From positions 1 through 64,000 of the forward strand of contig NZ_MRDE01000078.1 in assembly GCF_001968835.1 (NCBI RefSeq): a DNA stretch of 64,000 nt, read 5' to 3'. Each line of letters opens with the position of its first letter. The first letter of the stretch is position 1. The notes under the pieces are model-generated. The model was not told the DNA's origin, searched no databases, and saw nothing but the letters and a program-made list of their open reading frames with translations. The stretch is from Tersicoccus phoenicis. Its GTDB lineage: Bacteria; Actinomycetota; Actinomycetes; Actinomycetales; Micrococcaceae. Of the stretch, positions 40,571 to 46,758 are shown in pieces. The translations under genes and the position numbers were made by a program.

Positions 40571-41620
40571 GTGAACGTCGACGGGCCGCCGGGAGAAGCC
40601 GGTTCCGCCCGTGCGCAGCGGGTGACCATCTACGACGTAGCCCGGGCCGCGGGGGTGGCTCCGTCGACCGTGTCGCGGGCCTTCGCCCGGCCCGGCCGGG
40701 TCACCGCGGCCACCGCCGAGAAGGTCAGGCAGGCGGCCGACCAGGTCGGGTACCGGCCGGAGATGACCCAGCGACGCGGCCCCGCCGAGCGCAGGCGCGC
40801 TCGCACCATCGCCCTGCTGGTCGCCGACATCACGAACCCGGTGTTCCTCGACATCATCCGCGGCGCGGAAGAAGCCGTCACGGCCGCCGGCTACACCTTG
40901 CTGCTGGCCAACACGCAGGAATCGGACCGGCTCGAGCGGGGCATCCTGGAGCGGGTCCTGGACTCCGTGGACGGTTTGCTGCTGACCAGTTCCCGGATGC
41001 CGGACGCGGGGATCCGGTTGATCGCCCGGCAGAAGCCGACGGTCGTGCTCAACCGGTTCGTCACCGGCGTGCCCTGCGTCGTGGGGGACAGCACCGGCAT
41101 CCGGCGCGCCGCCGAGCTGTTCGCCACGATCGGGCGCACCCGGGTGGCCTACCTCGCCGGGCCCGAGGCATCGTGGGCGAACGGCGTGCGCTGGCGCGCT
41201 CTCGTCGACGCCGCTCCCGGCCTTGCGCTGTCGGTCCGGCAGCTGGGCCCCTTCGCCCCGGACATCGCCGGCGGGGAGGCGGCAGCCGCCACGTGGCTGA
41301 CCCGACGGACCCCGGCCGTGCTCGCGTACAACGATCTGATGGCCATCGGGTTCCAGCGCGCCGTGCTGGCCGCCGGCCTGCGCGTGCCCGAGGACGTCGC
41401 CGTCGTCGGCTTCGACGACTCGGTCCTCGCCGGCCTCGTCGTCCCCGCCCTGACCAGCATCGGCACCCCGCTGGTGCGGATCGGCGCGACCGCCGTCCAC
41501 CATCTGCTCGCGCTCGAGCGCGGCGGCCACCCGGCGGTGGACCGGCCCGTGCTGCTGCCCACCCGCCTGGTCGAACGCAGCTCGACCCCCGCCCGGCCCG
41601 TCCCCGGCGCGCCCCGCTGA
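40571..41620 (+). CDS. LacI-family transcriptional regulator
   Basis: This 349-residue protein has a LacI helix-turn-helix at residues 18-63 (VTIYDVARAAGVAPSTVSRA) and a periplasmic-binding-like effector domain (ALLVADITNPVFLDIIRGAE, later VPEDVAVVGFDDSVLAGLVV). It starts at GTG 40571, ten bases after purN. It precedes a symporter, dehydratase and kinase gene set and is the likely local repressor, with a sugar acid as probable effector. The operator cannot be identified with confidence. Confidence 0.9.
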   Translation: MNVDGPPGEAGSARAQRVTIYDVARAAGVAPSTVSRAFARPGRVTAATAEKVRQAADQVGYRPEMTQRRGPAERRRARTIALLVADITNPVFLDIIRGAEEAVTAAGYTLLLANTQESDRLERGILERVLDSVDGLLLTSSRMPDAGIRLIARQKPTVVLNRFVTGVPCVVGDSTGIRRAAELFATIGRTRVAYLAGPEASWANGVRWRALVDAAPGLALSVRQLGPFAPDIAGGEAAAATWLTRRTPAVLAYNDLMAIGFQRAVLAAGLRVPEDVAVVGFDDSVLAGLVVPALTSIGTPLVRIGATAVHHLLALERGGHPAVDRPVLLPTRLVERSSTPARPVPGAPR

Positions 41621-41801
41621 GGCCGCTCGGCTGAGGCCGCTCCCGGCGAGCTTGCCGACTCGACGTGCCGACTCGGTCCGGCCTGCGGGCGGCAACTGCT
41701 GGAAACTTCTTCGTCCGTGATGCGGACGCGCCCACCATGGTGAGACAGGCCACGTGCAGTACCGCGGGCCGCGGCCTCTCGGCCGAACCGTTCTCATCCT
41801 C

Positions 41802-41819: not shown

Positions 41820-41839
41820 CCGTGGGCAAAGGAGCCCTC

Positions 41840-43312
41840 ATGAAGCAGCCCAGCGCCGCCGTGCCGGCGGCCCCGATCGACGCCGCGCACCGGCCGCTGC
41901 CCTGGTGGCAGGTCGCCGGTTACGGGGCCGGTGACGCCGCCAACAACGTCGCGTTCACCACCACGACGATGTTCCTGCTCGTCTACTACACCGACGTCGC
42001 GGGCATCTCCGCTGCCGCGGCGGGCACCCTGCTGCTCGTCGTCCGCATCTTCGACGCCTTCGCCGACGTGTTCGCCGGCCGGGTCGTCGATGCCGCGAAG
42101 GTGACCCGCTGGGGCAAGTTCCGGCCGTTCATCGCCTTTGGGTCGATCCCGCTATTGATCCTCGCGTTCCTCAGCTTCCAGGTCCCTGCCGTCGGGCAGT
42201 CGGGCATGCTGGTCTACGCCTATCTGACCTATGCGGGCATGGGACTGGCGTACTCGCTCGTCAACATCCCCTACGGTTCGATGGCGGCGGCGATGACCCA
42301 GGTCAGCGGCGACCGTGCCAAGCTGGCCGCCGCACGCGTGGTCGGCGCGACCCTCGTCAGTGCGGCGCTCGGCACCTTCGTCTCGCCGCTGCTCAAGGCG
42401 GGGGCGGATCTGCAGGGCATCTTCACGACCGTGCTGCTCGTCGCGATCGTCATCGGCTTCGCGCTCTACATGGTCTGCTTCTTCACCGCTCGCGAGCGCG
42501 TGCAGCGGCCCGTGGCCCGCGTCTCGTTGCGGGACAGCCTCCGCTCGGTCGGCCGGAACAAGCCGCTGCTGCTCCTGATGCTCTCGTCGGTGCTGTTTCT
42601 CAGCGCCTTCCTCGCCCTGAACACCGTGCAGCTGTTCTACATCCGCGACGTGCTGCGCGCCCCGGGCCTCTTCCCGGTCCTCGCGCTCATCCAGCTGGTC
42701 CTGACCTTCGCCTTCGTCGCCGTCATGCCGTCGCTGGTGCGCCGCTTCGGCAAGAAGACCCTGTACATGGCGTTCGCTGGGCTCGTCGTCGTCGGCGGGC
42801 TGATCGTGTGGCTCGCCCCGCACAGCACTCCCGCGGTCGGCTTCATCGGCCTGGTCATCTCCTTGTTGGGTGTGCTCGCGAACAACGTGGTCGTCTTCGC
42901 GCTCGAGGCGGACACCGTGGAGTACGGTGAGTGGAAGACCGGTGTCCGGTCGGAGGGTTCGATCTACGCGGTGTTCTCCTTCACCCGCAAGTGCGGTCAG
43001 GCCATCGGCGGCGGCATCGCCGGGTGGGGCCTTGCTCTCGGCGGCTACGTCGCCGGCGCCGCACAGCAGTCGGACCGGGCCCTCGGGGGGATCCAGACCA
43101 CGGCCGGGCTCGTCCCCGCGGTGCTCTCCCTGCTCGCCCTGATCGTCATGCTGGCCTACCCGCTCACCGACCAGGTGCACGCGGACATCGTCGACGAGAT
43201 CCGGATCCGCCGCGAGACCGGCCGGATCCCCGTCGTCCTCGAGGAACAGCTGGAGCGCGAGACCGGGTCCCACCCGGGCCGGCAGACCCCGCCCGACGGC
43301 TCGACCCGGTGA
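41840..43312 (+). CDS. GPH-family sugar:cation symporter
   Basis: The 490-residue protein has twelve predicted transmembrane helices and the glycoside-pentoside-hexuronide family features: [20 protein letters not shown] near the start, the D-rich loop [18 protein letters not shown] after helix 2, and [20 protein letters not shown] in the second half. AAAGGAG lies six bases before the ATG. With the downstream ManD and GntK genes, a sugar acid such as a hexuronide or gluconate is a reasonable substrate, but this is inference. The hydrophilic C-terminal end is about 45 residues long. Confidence 0.88.
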
Positions 43313-43353: not shown

Positions 43354-44583
43354 ATGAAGATCGTCGCAGCCGACGTCGTCGTCACCAGCCCGACCCGCAA
43401 CTTCGTCACCCTGAAGGTGACGACGGACGAGGGGGTGACCGGACTCGGTGACGCCACCCTCAACGGCCGGGAACTGTCCGTCGCCGCGTACCTGAAGGAG
43501 CACGTCGTCCCGCTGCTCCTGAACCGCGACCCCGCCAACATCGAGGACACCTGGCAGTTCCTCTACCGCTCCGGCTACTGGCGGCGCGGCCCCGTGACCA
43601 TGGCCGCGATCGCCGCCGTGGACATGGCCCTGTGGGACATCAAGGGCAAGGTCGCCGGGATGCCCGTGTACCAGCTGCTCGGCGGTGCCTCCCGGCGCGG
43701 CCTGTCCACCTACGGGCACGCCTCCGGCCGGGACCTGCCCGAACTGTTCGACTCGATCCGGCACGAGAAGGAGCACGGGTTCACCGCGATCCGCGTGCAG
43801 ACCTCCGTCCCGGGCATCAAGGCCCTCTACGGGGTGGCCGCGCAGACCCAGGCCTCCGGCGAACGGTACGACTACGAGCCCGCCCAGCGGACCGCGCTGC
43901 CGGTCGAGGAGGACTGGGACACCCGCGCCTACCTGCGGCACCTGCCCGGCGTGTTCGAGGCGGTGCGCAACGAGTTCGGTCCCGAACTGGCCCTGCTGCA
44001 CGACGGGCATCACCGGATGACGCCGCTGCAGGCGGCGAAGCTGGGCAAGGACCTGGAACCGTACGACCTGTTCTGGCTGGAGGACTGCACCCCGGCGGAG
44101 AACCAGGACGCCCTGCGGCTGGTCCGCCAGCACACGACGACGCCGCTGGCGATCGGCGAGGTGTTCAACACCATCTACGACATCAAGGACCTGATCAGCG
44201 AGCAGCTGATCGACTACGTCCGGTGCGCGTCCACCCATTTCGGCGGCATCACCCCGCTGAAGAAGGTGATGGACTTCGCCGCGGTCTACCAGGTCAAGTC
44301 CGGCTTCCACGGCCCCACCGACGTCTCCCCGGTCGGCCTGGCCGCCCAGATGCACGTCGGGATGGCGATCCACAACTTCGGCTTGCAGGAGTACATGGAA
44401 CACTCCCCGACGACGAACAGCGTGTTCGAGCAGTCGCTGACCTTCGTCGAGGGCCTGCTGCACCCGGGCGACGAACCGGGCCTGGGCGTCGAGTTGAACG
44501 AGGAGGAGGCCGCGAAGTACGCGTACCAGGCCGCCTACCTGCCCTACAACCGGCTCGCCGACGGAACGGTGCACGACTGGTGA
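43354..44583 (+). CDS. Mannonate/gluconate dehydratase (enolase superfamily, ManD subgroup)
   Basis: The 409-residue enzyme belongs to the ManD subgroup, which makes 2-keto-3-deoxygluconate from mannonate and, in some members, gluconate. The metal ligands align as D217, E243 and E269 ([27 protein letters not shown]), with H219, R147 and Y159 where the ManD active site expects them. After H319 the sequence is [10 protein letters not shown], with Pro rather than the Ala found in well-studied mannonate enzymes. AAGGAGA precedes the ATG. It overlaps gntK by four bases. Confidence 0.9.
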
Positions 44584-45116
44584 GCGACGCCGACGCCGCC
44601 CCCATCGCTGAGGAACGGGCCGTCCCGCACGTCGTCGTGATGGGAGTATCCGGGTCCGGCAAGACCACCATCGGCGCGCTCATTGCCGACGAGTTGGGCG
44701 TCCCGTTCGTCGACGGTGACGGCCTGCACCCCATCGAGAATGTGCGCAAGATGGCCGCCGGCACCCCGCTGACCGACGAGGACCGCTGGCCTTGGCTGCA
44801 GACCGTCGGGGAGCGCCTGGCCACGTCCGGCGGTGGTCTGGTCATCGCCTGCTCGGCCCTGAGGCGCGTCTACCGGAACGCCATCCTCACCGAGGCGCCG
44901 GCCACGGTGTTCGTGCACCTGGCCGGCACCCTGGACGTGCTGCGCGAGCGGATGGAGGGGCGCAGCGGCCACTTCATGCCTCCCAGCCTGCTCGCGTCCC
45001 AACTGGAGACGCTGGAACCGCTGGCCGACGACGAGCCCGGCTTCGTGCTGGACATCGCCCGACCGGTGGACGAGCTGGTGCGGCAGGCCGTGGACGGCGT
45101 CCGCGCCCGGGTCTGA
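44580..45116 (+). CDS. gntK: Gluconokinase, GntK type
   Basis: The 178-residue kinase phosphorylates gluconate to 6-phosphogluconate. The P-loop is GVSGSGKTT (residues 22-30), followed by the family motifs [38 protein letters not shown] and [19 protein letters not shown]. It starts at a GTG overlapping the dehydratase stop (GTGA), so the two are coupled. Its presence suggests that gluconate is one of the substrates of this cassette. Confidence 0.95.
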
Positions 45117-45123
45117 GAGGGGG

Positions 45124-46509
45124 TCAGTGTTCCAGCGTCGTCAGCTCCCGGCCGCGGGTCTCCGGCGCCCACACCGCCATCACCACGACGGCGACGACGA
45201 CGAGCGCACCGGTGACGGCGAACGTCAGCGGCAGGCCCAGGACCGGCCACAGCAGCGACCCGAAGATCAACGGCACCAGGCCGGCGCCGACGCGTGACGC
45301 CGTCGACGCCCAGCCGAAGCCGGAGCCGCGCAGCTGGGTCGGGTACAGCTCGGAGACGTAGGTGTAGAGGACCGGGATGGCCACCTGGACGATGAAGCCG
45401 AAGAAGAGCAGCATCGCGTTGGCGGCCAGCGGTGCCTCGGCGTCCAGGAACAGGGCGAACACCACCAGGCTCAGCGCCGAGAGCGGGCCGGCGATCCCGA
45501 GTAGCCACTTCCGGCCGAGCCGCTCGACCAGGGCGGCCGCGACGAGCGCACCGACCAGGCCGATCGCCGTCATGCCCGCCGTGCGCAGGAACGCGCTGGA
45601 CTCCGGGTAGCCGGCCTTGACCAGGATGGACGGCATCCAGGTCAGGGCGCCGTAATAGACGAGCAAGATGGTGACGAACAGGCTCCACGCCGTCAGGGTG
45701 ACCTTCCAGTCGAACCGCCACAACAGCCCCACCTGCTTGGTGAGGGAACCGATCGCCAGCTTCGGCGCCTCCTCCGGGTCGGGTAGCCGCCAGGGGCCGA
45801 CGGTCGCACCGGTGCGAGCGATCAGGCCGTCGATCACGGTGCGGGCCTCCTCCCTGCGACCCTTGCTCACCAGGAACAAAGGCGACTCGGGCACCCCGGT
45901 GCGCACCCAGAAGACGAGCAGCGCCGGGACGATCATCACCAACATCAGCGGGCGCCAGTCGGCGAAGGCGGCCACGAGCGCGGCGGAGACGACGCCGCAC
46001 AGGGTGGCGCCGACCGGCCACCAGCCGTCCATGGCGGTCAGCACGCGGCCGCGGTGCTTCCGCGGCGTGAACTCGCCGACCAGGGCGTAGTCGACCGGGA
46101 TGCAGCCGCCCAGGCCGAACCCGGCGATGAATCGGAACACGCAGAACCAGAGCAGATCGGGGGAGAGGGCCCCCAGCAGGGTGAAGACGGAGAAGATCAG
46201 CAGCGTCAGGGTGAACGCACGCTTGCGGCCCACCGCGTCGGCGATGCCGCCCCACGCGAACGCTCCGACGGCCATGCCGATCAGGTTGGCGGTGCCCACC
46301 CACGCCGCCTGGCCGGGACTGAGCTGCCAGTCCGCGGAGAGCAGCGGGATGAGGAAGCCGTTGAGGGTGACGTCCCAGGCGTCGAACATGAAGCCGAGGC
46401 CGCCGATGAGGAAGATCTTCCCCTGCACGCCCCAGCGCCAGGGCAGGTCCTGGACGACGGCATCGCCGGCGGGCAGCGGGGCATTCTGGATATGGGTAGG
46501 ACTGGTCAC
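45124..46509 (-). CDS. MFS transporter, sugar-porter/NiaP-like
   Basis: This 461-residue protein has twelve predicted helices and major-facilitator motifs: GGIADAVGRKRAF after TM2, RFIAGFGLGGCIPVDYALVGEF in TM4, the GVPESPLFLVSKGRREEA loop mid-protein, and WAPETRGREL at the end. FMFDAWDVTLNGFLIPLL in TM1 resembles organic-acid and nicotinate carriers, so substrate assignment is open. It starts at GTG 46509 with AGAGG upstream. It is convergent with gntK, seven bases apart, and probably belongs with the adjacent cassette. Confidence 0.85.
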   Translation of the reverse strand: MTSPTHIQNAPLPAGDAVVQDLPWRWGVQGKIFLIGGLGFMFDAWDVTLNGFLIPLLSADWQLSPGQAAWVGTANLIGMAVGAFAWGGIADAVGRKRAFTLTLLIFSVFTLLGALSPDLLWFCVFRFIAGFGLGGCIPVDYALVGEFTPRKHRGRVLTAMDGWWPVGATLCGVVSAALVAAFADWRPLMLVMIVPALLVFWVRTGVPESPLFLVSKGRREEARTVIDGLIARTGATVGPWRLPDPEEAPKLAIGSLTKQVGLLWRFDWKVTLTAWSLFVTILLVYYGALTWMPSILVKAGYPESSAFLRTAGMTAIGLVGALVAAALVERLGRKWLLGIAGPLSALSLVVFALFLDAEAPLAANAMLLFFGFIVQVAIPVLYTYVSELYPTQLRGSGFGWASTASRVGAGLVPLIFGSLLWPVLGLPLTFAVTGALVVVAVVVMAVWAPETRGRELTTLEH

Positions 46510-46605
46510 GGTGGACCTCTTTCCTGGCGTGATTCCCGCGACGAGCGGGCGACCTCCGACCGGGATAGCATGCTGCGTCACCACGGGGCGCCGGAGATGG
46601 GAGCC

Positions 46606-46611
46606 ACTGTA
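46606..46611 (-). promoter_or_regulatory. Candidate -10 box for the MFS transporter
   Basis: TACAGT is read on the minus strand at 46611-46606, about 97 bases before the GTG. A GTGACC lies about 20 bases upstream of it, which is long for a -35. The same interval on the plus strand has a TAGCAT (46647-46652) six bases before an ATG, discussed as a possible gene remnant. Confidence 0.4.
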
Positions 46612-46758
46612 GCGCATTCGCGCGTGTCGTGGGTCACGCGCCGGGTAGCATCCGCTCATGACCGACGACGCGGGGGACGCGCCGTCCACCCTTCCGAGCC
46701 TTCCCGGCGAGCACCCGTCCCGCCGGTGCCTGAGCCGCCCGCGGCGGAACCGTCGGGC

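Follow-up and report, generated by a model that had tools for sequence, protein, structure and literature searches.

The ManD-type gene in the window, the 64,000-nucleotide stretch of Tersicoccus phoenicis DNA analysed here, probably encodes a D-mannonate dehydratase belonging to a split glucuronate regulon, of which the window would hold the transport and dehydratase half. In the proposed route, a UidB-like symporter would import the sugar acid, either free as glucuronate or as a glucuronide. The UxaC and UxuB proteins, whose genes lie on a different contig, would convert glucuronate through fructuronate to D-mannonate, and the window ManD, a Pro-type enzyme, would turn D-mannonate into 2-keto-3-deoxygluconate (KDG) by dehydration. 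The remaining steps would fall to a KDG kinase and a KDPG aldolase, with genes on contigs C109 and C122 as candidates. GntK, translated from an overlapping start, would be an accessory gluconokinase of the operon. Gene families, neighbourhoods and co-occurrence are observed directly; the substrate, the efficiency, control of the genes in this strain, the later steps and GntK function are deduced.

The dehydratase and its neighbours in the window

The dehydratase gene (43354..44583, + strand; 409 aa) is a full-length ORF with an ATG start and GAAGGAGA 5' of the start codon. Its product scores 682.8 bits against the NCBIfam ManD equivalog NF043051 (cut-off 550), aligned over residues 1–409 of 409. 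In an alignment with the ManD of Novosphingobium aromaticivorans (NaManD), window residues R147, Y159, D217, H219, E243, E269 and H319 correspond to R147, Y159, D210, H212, E236, E262 and H312, and E346 and W409 are likewise matched by identical residues; the active site is thus complete at all nine positions, as the first-pass annotation had stated. The metal ligands of ManD enzymes and their Arg/Tyr and His residues have catalytic roles. Across 140 aligned ManD rows, with some loci entered twice in short and long form, seven of the nine columns are invariant, E269 is kept in 139 rows and W409 in 137.

The window protein departs from NaManD in two places. The motif at residues 319–323 (44308..44322, + strand) reads HGPTD, as first annotated: catalytic His319, Gly320, Pro321 (codon 44314–44316), Thr322 and Asp323. 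The proline is the second residue after the histidine, not its neighbour as had been claimed, and aligns with Ala314 of NaManD. The 19-residue loop from Tyr159 (43828..43884, + strand) is six residues longer than in NaManD, which has YGVGRGKLYYEPA at this position.

The dehydratase gene is preceded on the same strand by a LacI-family regulator (40571..41620; 349 aa; Pfam LacI and Peripla_BP_3), 56% identical to the LacI protein preceding uxaC in locus L009 and 45% identical to that in L010, and a GPH-family symporter (41822..43312; 496 aa; Pfam MFS_2). The symporter resembles the UidB glucuronide transporter and scores 560.1 bits against NCBIfam NF007353 (cut-off 528). Downstream is a GntK/IdnK-type gluconokinase gene (44580..45116, + strand; 178 aa), scoring 170.1 bits against TIGR01313 (cut-off 113.75). 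The four-base overlap reported earlier is real: gntK starts with GTG at 44580 and the ManD stop codon occupies 44581–44583. The ORF that follows gntK, at 45124–46689, is an MFS gene on the opposite strand.

Glucuronate genes in the genome and its relatives

The first-pass annotation had argued for a gluconate-related or still unknown sugar-acid route from a lack of KDG kinase, uxaC and uxuB. These genes are indeed missing from the ManD–gntK neighbourhood, but the 3.21-Mb genome contains uxaC, a uxuB-like gene and a PfkB KDG-kinase candidate, and the argument from missing genes does not stand. UxaC is encoded at C105:180525-181832 (E 2.7e-71; 536.1 bits against an NCBIfam cut-off of 387). Adjoining it on C105 is the uxuB-like gene, whose product shares 58% identity with the UxuB encoded in the Pseudarthrobacter operon (L010); the UxuB proteins score 228.2 and 276.1 bits, under the curated fructuronate-reductase cut-off of 603. 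The genome has no match to UxuA (PF03786) and none to the UxaA/altronate dehydratase family (PF04295). UxaC and UxuB without UxuA is the pattern used here for membership of the glucuronate (Ashwell) pathway, and this genome shows it; of these proteins, the 149-genome survey below covers UxaC and UxuA.

For the later steps, a PfkB kinase at the end of C109 has KDG kinases as its best matches, below their cut-offs, and a KDPG-aldolase-family (eda) gene lies in two pieces, one beside this kinase and the rest on C122. The kinase candidate (L101:536-1445) shows a frame change close to where its contig stops. The two aldolase pieces each sit at a contig end (L101 on C109, L102 on C122), and the scanned pieces score below curated NCBIfam cut-offs. 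Either assembly error or decay would give this frame change and split, and the two look the same here.

The genome also encodes a galactonate dehydratase of the enolase superfamily (L001:1120-2268, on C115; 677.8 bits, cut-off 311; 32% identity to the window ManD), so the C109/C122 kinase and aldolase may be part of a galactonate route instead. It is one of five other enolase-superfamily matches in the genome. The four that were scanned (L001, L002, L004 and L005, leaving out L006, a sub-threshold match) all score below the ManD cut-off. L001 as galactonate dehydratase, L004 as o-succinylbenzoate synthase and L005 as enolase exceed their own cut-offs; L002 exceeds no NCBIfam cut-off, its best being L-talarate/galactarate dehydratase (153.6 of 500).

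Relatives frequently keep these genes together. We compared 80 named loci with flanks of up to 9 kb, some shortened by contig ends, calling UxuB-like genes by tblastn. In Pseudarthrobacter chlorophenolicus (L010) the gene order is LacI-uxaC-uxuB-GPH-ManD-gntK. The flanks contain uxuB in 43 of the 80 loci and both uxaC and uxuB in 33; in 37, these flanks contain neither. A GPH gene lies directly upstream of ManD in 12 loci. Directly downstream is gntK in 31, 22 of which also have uxaC or uxuB, and the coupling of ManD to gntK noted in the first pass is thus conserved. A variant layout occurs in seven loci (L022, L027, L033, L038, L060, L141 and L143), which combine ManD with an enolase-superfamily paralogue of about 30% identity and a KdgK-like kinase; their flanks are without uxaC and uxuB, and gntK may be present or not.

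The same association holds among 149 genomes of the organism's own family (32 genera; ManD called at E 1e-80 or better). ManD is found in 47 genomes and UxaC in 41 (40 over cut-off, with a remnant in G102); the UxaC copy of G143 contains stops. All 41 UxaC genomes fall inside the 47 with ManD, and UxaC is found in 0 of the other 102 (Fisher p 1.2e-30, kinship ignored). Comparison of the two tables places both genes in the same 17 genera. In 37 of the 41 genomes UxaC and ManD are no more than 8 kb apart; in the window genome, G045, G009 and G067 the two are on different contigs. UxuA exceeds its cut-off in none of the 149 genomes, its one sub-threshold match being in a genome without ManD. The UxaC and uxuB-like genes, the missing UxuA and UxaA and the operons shared by relatives together argue for mannonate rather than gluconate as the substrate in vivo.

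Matches to the PF01081 aldolase family occur in 60 of the 149 genomes (58 over cut-off), 33 of them among the 47 with ManD and 27 among the other 102; the family is enriched among ManD genomes, yet 14 of the 47 have no match. A galacturonate/altronate route is unlikely: PF04295 is absent from three genomes of the genus and present in 3 of 149 in the family, all three of which have ManD and UxaC.

Relatives also share a palindrome, TGGCAANNNNTTGCCA (TGGCAA-N4-TTGCCA). Over 1,899,409 bases, leaving out own-genome loci and the short loci L103–L132, it turns up 71 times with no more than one mismatch, spread over 43 loci of relatives (L010:4325 and L010:7430 among them); a single shuffle of the bases, locus by locus, gives 2 sites. 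Within 300 bases downstream of each site, the closest probed gene is uxaC in 25 cases, LacI in 18, the symporter in 12 and ManD in 7, and 9 sites have no such gene. The palindrome is likely the operator of the linked LacI regulator.

The operator is fainter in T. phoenicis itself. The best site upstream of uxaC, with two mismatches, scores 11.6, and a degenerate half of the operator upstream of the symporter (CGGCAACTGCTGGAAA; 41690..41705, + strand) scores 0.9, which is weak, inside the chance range and not significant alone. The maximum scores of 20 shuffled windows run from 2.4 to 16.8, so co-regulation of uxaC and the window operon in this strain is suggested at most; strong as the operator is in relatives, scores this low do not make it proof here. 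G045 has a score of 19.1 at its uxaC site, and there a near-identical counterpart of the weak symporter site precedes the symporter (reverse strand, L137:11443).

Several observations count against a glucuronate role: the 37 loci whose flanks have neither uxaC nor uxuB, the 6 of 47 ManD genomes without UxaC, the UxuB scores below cut-off and the broken kinase and aldolase genes. To these can be added the low mannonate efficiency of the Pro-type enzymes characterised so far, the galactonate dehydratase, the 14 ManD genomes with no PF01081 match, the co-occurrence of PF04295 with ManD and UxaC wherever it is found, and the strain's own weak operator.

The proline column and the linked gluconokinase

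Alanine two residues past the catalytic histidine marks high-efficiency ManDs, whose kcat/KM on D-mannonate is at least 10^3 M-1 s-1. The window ManD is without this marker, having Pro321 instead. In 2014, Wichelecki and colleagues reportedly associated proline in this column with low mannonate efficiency or gluconate activity. The first-pass annotation was right that the column matters to the field, since solved ManDs divide at it and a mutant has been made there. Alanine is found in 3VCN and 4GME, which we take to be from Caulobacter, in 3THU, presumably from Sphingomonas (all three HGATD), and in NaManD (2QJJ). Proline is found in 3OW1 (HGPTD, Pro317), which we assume to be from Chromohalobacter, in E. 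coli RspA (4IL2) and in 4E4F (the last two HGPSD). PDB entry 4K1W is NaManD with A314P, mutated at the window's proline column, and 4K8G is NaManD mutated in the loop from Tyr159; both departures of the window protein, the proline and the longer loop, therefore coincide with sites that crystallographers chose to mutate. The passages returned by a literature search include no treatment of Pro-type ManD in actinobacteria, and those from PMC6901390, PMC5788505 and PMC4922564 do not discuss the Ala/Pro residue.

HGPTD in the window ManD is no chance feature. It is present in 81 of 81 loci (80 relatives and the own locus), and over the 140 ManD rows the column has 127 P, 12 A and 1 S. Among 14 plasmid sequences fetched of 50 records, the 12 proteobacterial ManDs have alanine in ten and proline in two (RspA, L152, and a Caballeronia protein, L160); the three with an annotated uxaC in the vicinity (L149, L151 and L161) all have alanine.

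Two Pro/Ala changes are required on a tree of 73 rows (the window and 72 kept from 107 after thinning). The window-type proline clade comprises 59 rows, nearly all Actinomycetota, on a starred branch (99); its closest kin are two alanine rows of the same family, L134 and L135 (97, starred, for the 61). It stands apart from the RspA/Caballeronia pair (99, starred), and the window ManD is not on a common branch with RspA. Since deeper branching is unsettled and several rows are long, independent gain of proline in the window clade and in the RspA pair is the simplest reading, short of proof. If the window enzyme most likely takes the mannonate step of glucuronate catabolism, then proline alone does not predict role; Pro321 most likely marks a clade rather than a different pathway.

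Some rows deserve separate mention. Other phylum names within the proline clade belong to MAG rows (L061, Rhodanobacter; L075, Acidobacteria), whose placement may reflect transfer or mis-binning. L110, from G102, is the sole HGSTD among ManD rows and adjoins the UxaC remnant, the only UxaC of that genome, as if the operon were decaying. L134 (G009) and L135 (G006) are second ManD-like copies with 56–57% identity and HGAGD, and nearby are a UxuB-like gene and a high-scoring match to the PF01081 aldolase family; they form a putative further ManD subgroup. In L058 (Paenarthrobacter sp. PH39-S1), ManD has two in-frame TGA codons and GntK one TAG, which indicates either a decayed copy or sequencing errors.

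Proline in RspA and in the Chromohalobacter ManD is also where the main alternative, the view of the first-pass annotation, begins: a low-efficiency or gluconate-active ManD that, with GntK, serves gluconate or an unknown sugar-acid route. The placement of gntK directly 3' of ManD in 31 of 80 loci is in keeping with it, as is genus mate G015, one of the six ManD genomes without UxaC, which retains ManD-gntK with no UxaC match and no symporter match in the 18 kb read. Within the three genomes sampled from the genus, moreover, the ManD-linked GntK is the sole gluconokinase match. We nevertheless consider this reading unlikely, given that UxaC genomes are nested within ManD genomes, that none of the 149 genomes has UxuA over cut-off and that relatives have operons and an operator in common. 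A gluconokinase would also compete with a gluconate dehydratase for gluconate and not follow it.

The kinase itself falls below both E. coli-type equivalog cut-offs (133 of 265 and 127.7 of 304), and its nearest solved relative is the gluconokinase 3T61 (176.7 bits). GntK exceeds its cut-off in 121 of the 149 family genomes, so presence alone is uninformative. In each of three genus genomes the sole GntK match is the ManD-linked copy, with 22 of 43–46 first-look candidates scored. On a tree of 78 rows (51 ManD-linked and 27 other copies, near-copies thinned, 20 of the unlinked copies hand-picked from listed matches), the linked and other labels change 7 times against a shuffled mean of 22.7, and 0 of 500 shuffles are as low; starred branches alone force 1 change. 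So few changes indicate that linked GntKs form mostly separate lineages, clustering for the most part apart from stand-alone copies. Nine alignment columns set the linked copies apart, none of them near-invariant, while 34 residues are near-invariant across both groups. We therefore rejected these columns as specificity residues, and the pattern favours a plain gluconokinase in the window.

In ten of the ten named loci that pass a script filter, which the decayed L058 failed, the ManD-linked GntK and a GH3-type domain share a single open frame (L010:10227-12539, L013, L014, L015, L016, L017, L018, L021, L024 and L025). The closest solved relative of this domain is the beta-glucoside phosphorylase BglX (5VQD, 381 bits). 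The window GntK is without it.

The separation on the tree, together with the gene overlap and the conserved adjacency, could also mean that the linked kinase has turned into a KDG kinase, or another acid-sugar kinase, acting on the ManD product. Among the 43 loci that contain uxaC or uxuB, L056 alone has a flanking match to the strain's own KdgK candidate, a gene that is itself either broken or wrongly assembled and that may serve galactonate breakdown. However, no near-invariant position distinguishes linked from other GntKs, Micromonospora loci L027 and L033 combine a KdgK-like kinase with both GntK and ManD, and the window genome has a single GntK match; we regard such a change of substrate as quite unlikely.

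RspA has low activity, and L-gulonate/L-idonate contexts or a regulatory role have been considered for proteins like it. That the window protein is similarly marginal, with its role elsewhere and mannonate left to an unrecognised enzyme, is very improbable: the shared proline and the 37 loci without flanking uxaC and uxuB are compatible with it, but the window clade and the RspA pair occupy separate starred branches, and UxuA exceeds its cut-off in no genome of a family in which 41 match UxaC.

A broader version of the mannonate dehydratase reading is unlikely but worth stating. Pro-type, long-loop ManD of Actinomycetota could be a fully functional mannonate dehydratase that replaces UxuA, the Tyr159 loop offsetting the proline. 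The linked GntK would then be the dedicated kinase of the route, as a non-PfkB KDG kinase or for a gluconate branch from the same imported conjugate, fused in frame in some lineages to a GH3 glycoside phosphorylase-like domain. If the mannonate dehydratase reading holds, even in its narrower form, taking proline as a sign of weak or altered ManD activity would be misleading for the whole clade, and actinobacteria without UxuA would gain a mannonate step. The combination of proline and loop would then make this clade a natural test of ManD efficiency at the very sites mutated in 4K1W and 4K8G.

Comparison with known systems

Among the closest known systems is that of N. aromaticivorans, whose ManD (2QJJ; plasmid pNL2, locus L149) shares the active-site residues and is 59% identical to the window protein. 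Its gene lies near uxaC and a mannitol-dehydrogenase-family gene. NaManD differs in having Ala314 in place of Pro321 and a Tyr159 loop six residues shorter, and its locus differs in having no gntK among the annotated neighbours and a FadR/GntR-type regulator.

E. coli RspA (4IL2; plasmid locus L152) is 57% identical to the window ManD and has proline in the same column. Unlike the window protein it reads HGPSD, and the tree places it on another branch; no uxaC or gntK is annotated next to L152.

A third comparison is with 3OW1 and 4K2S, which we take to be Chromohalobacter salexigens ManD, presumably a low-efficiency member with 4K2S as its P317A mutant. This protein has HGPTD like the window ManD, with Pro317 in 3OW1. 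The drop in score of the 4K2S fragment is about that between alanine and proline in NaManD. UxuA-type mannonate dehydratase has the same reaction as that proposed for the window ManD and belongs to a different Pfam family, PF03786.
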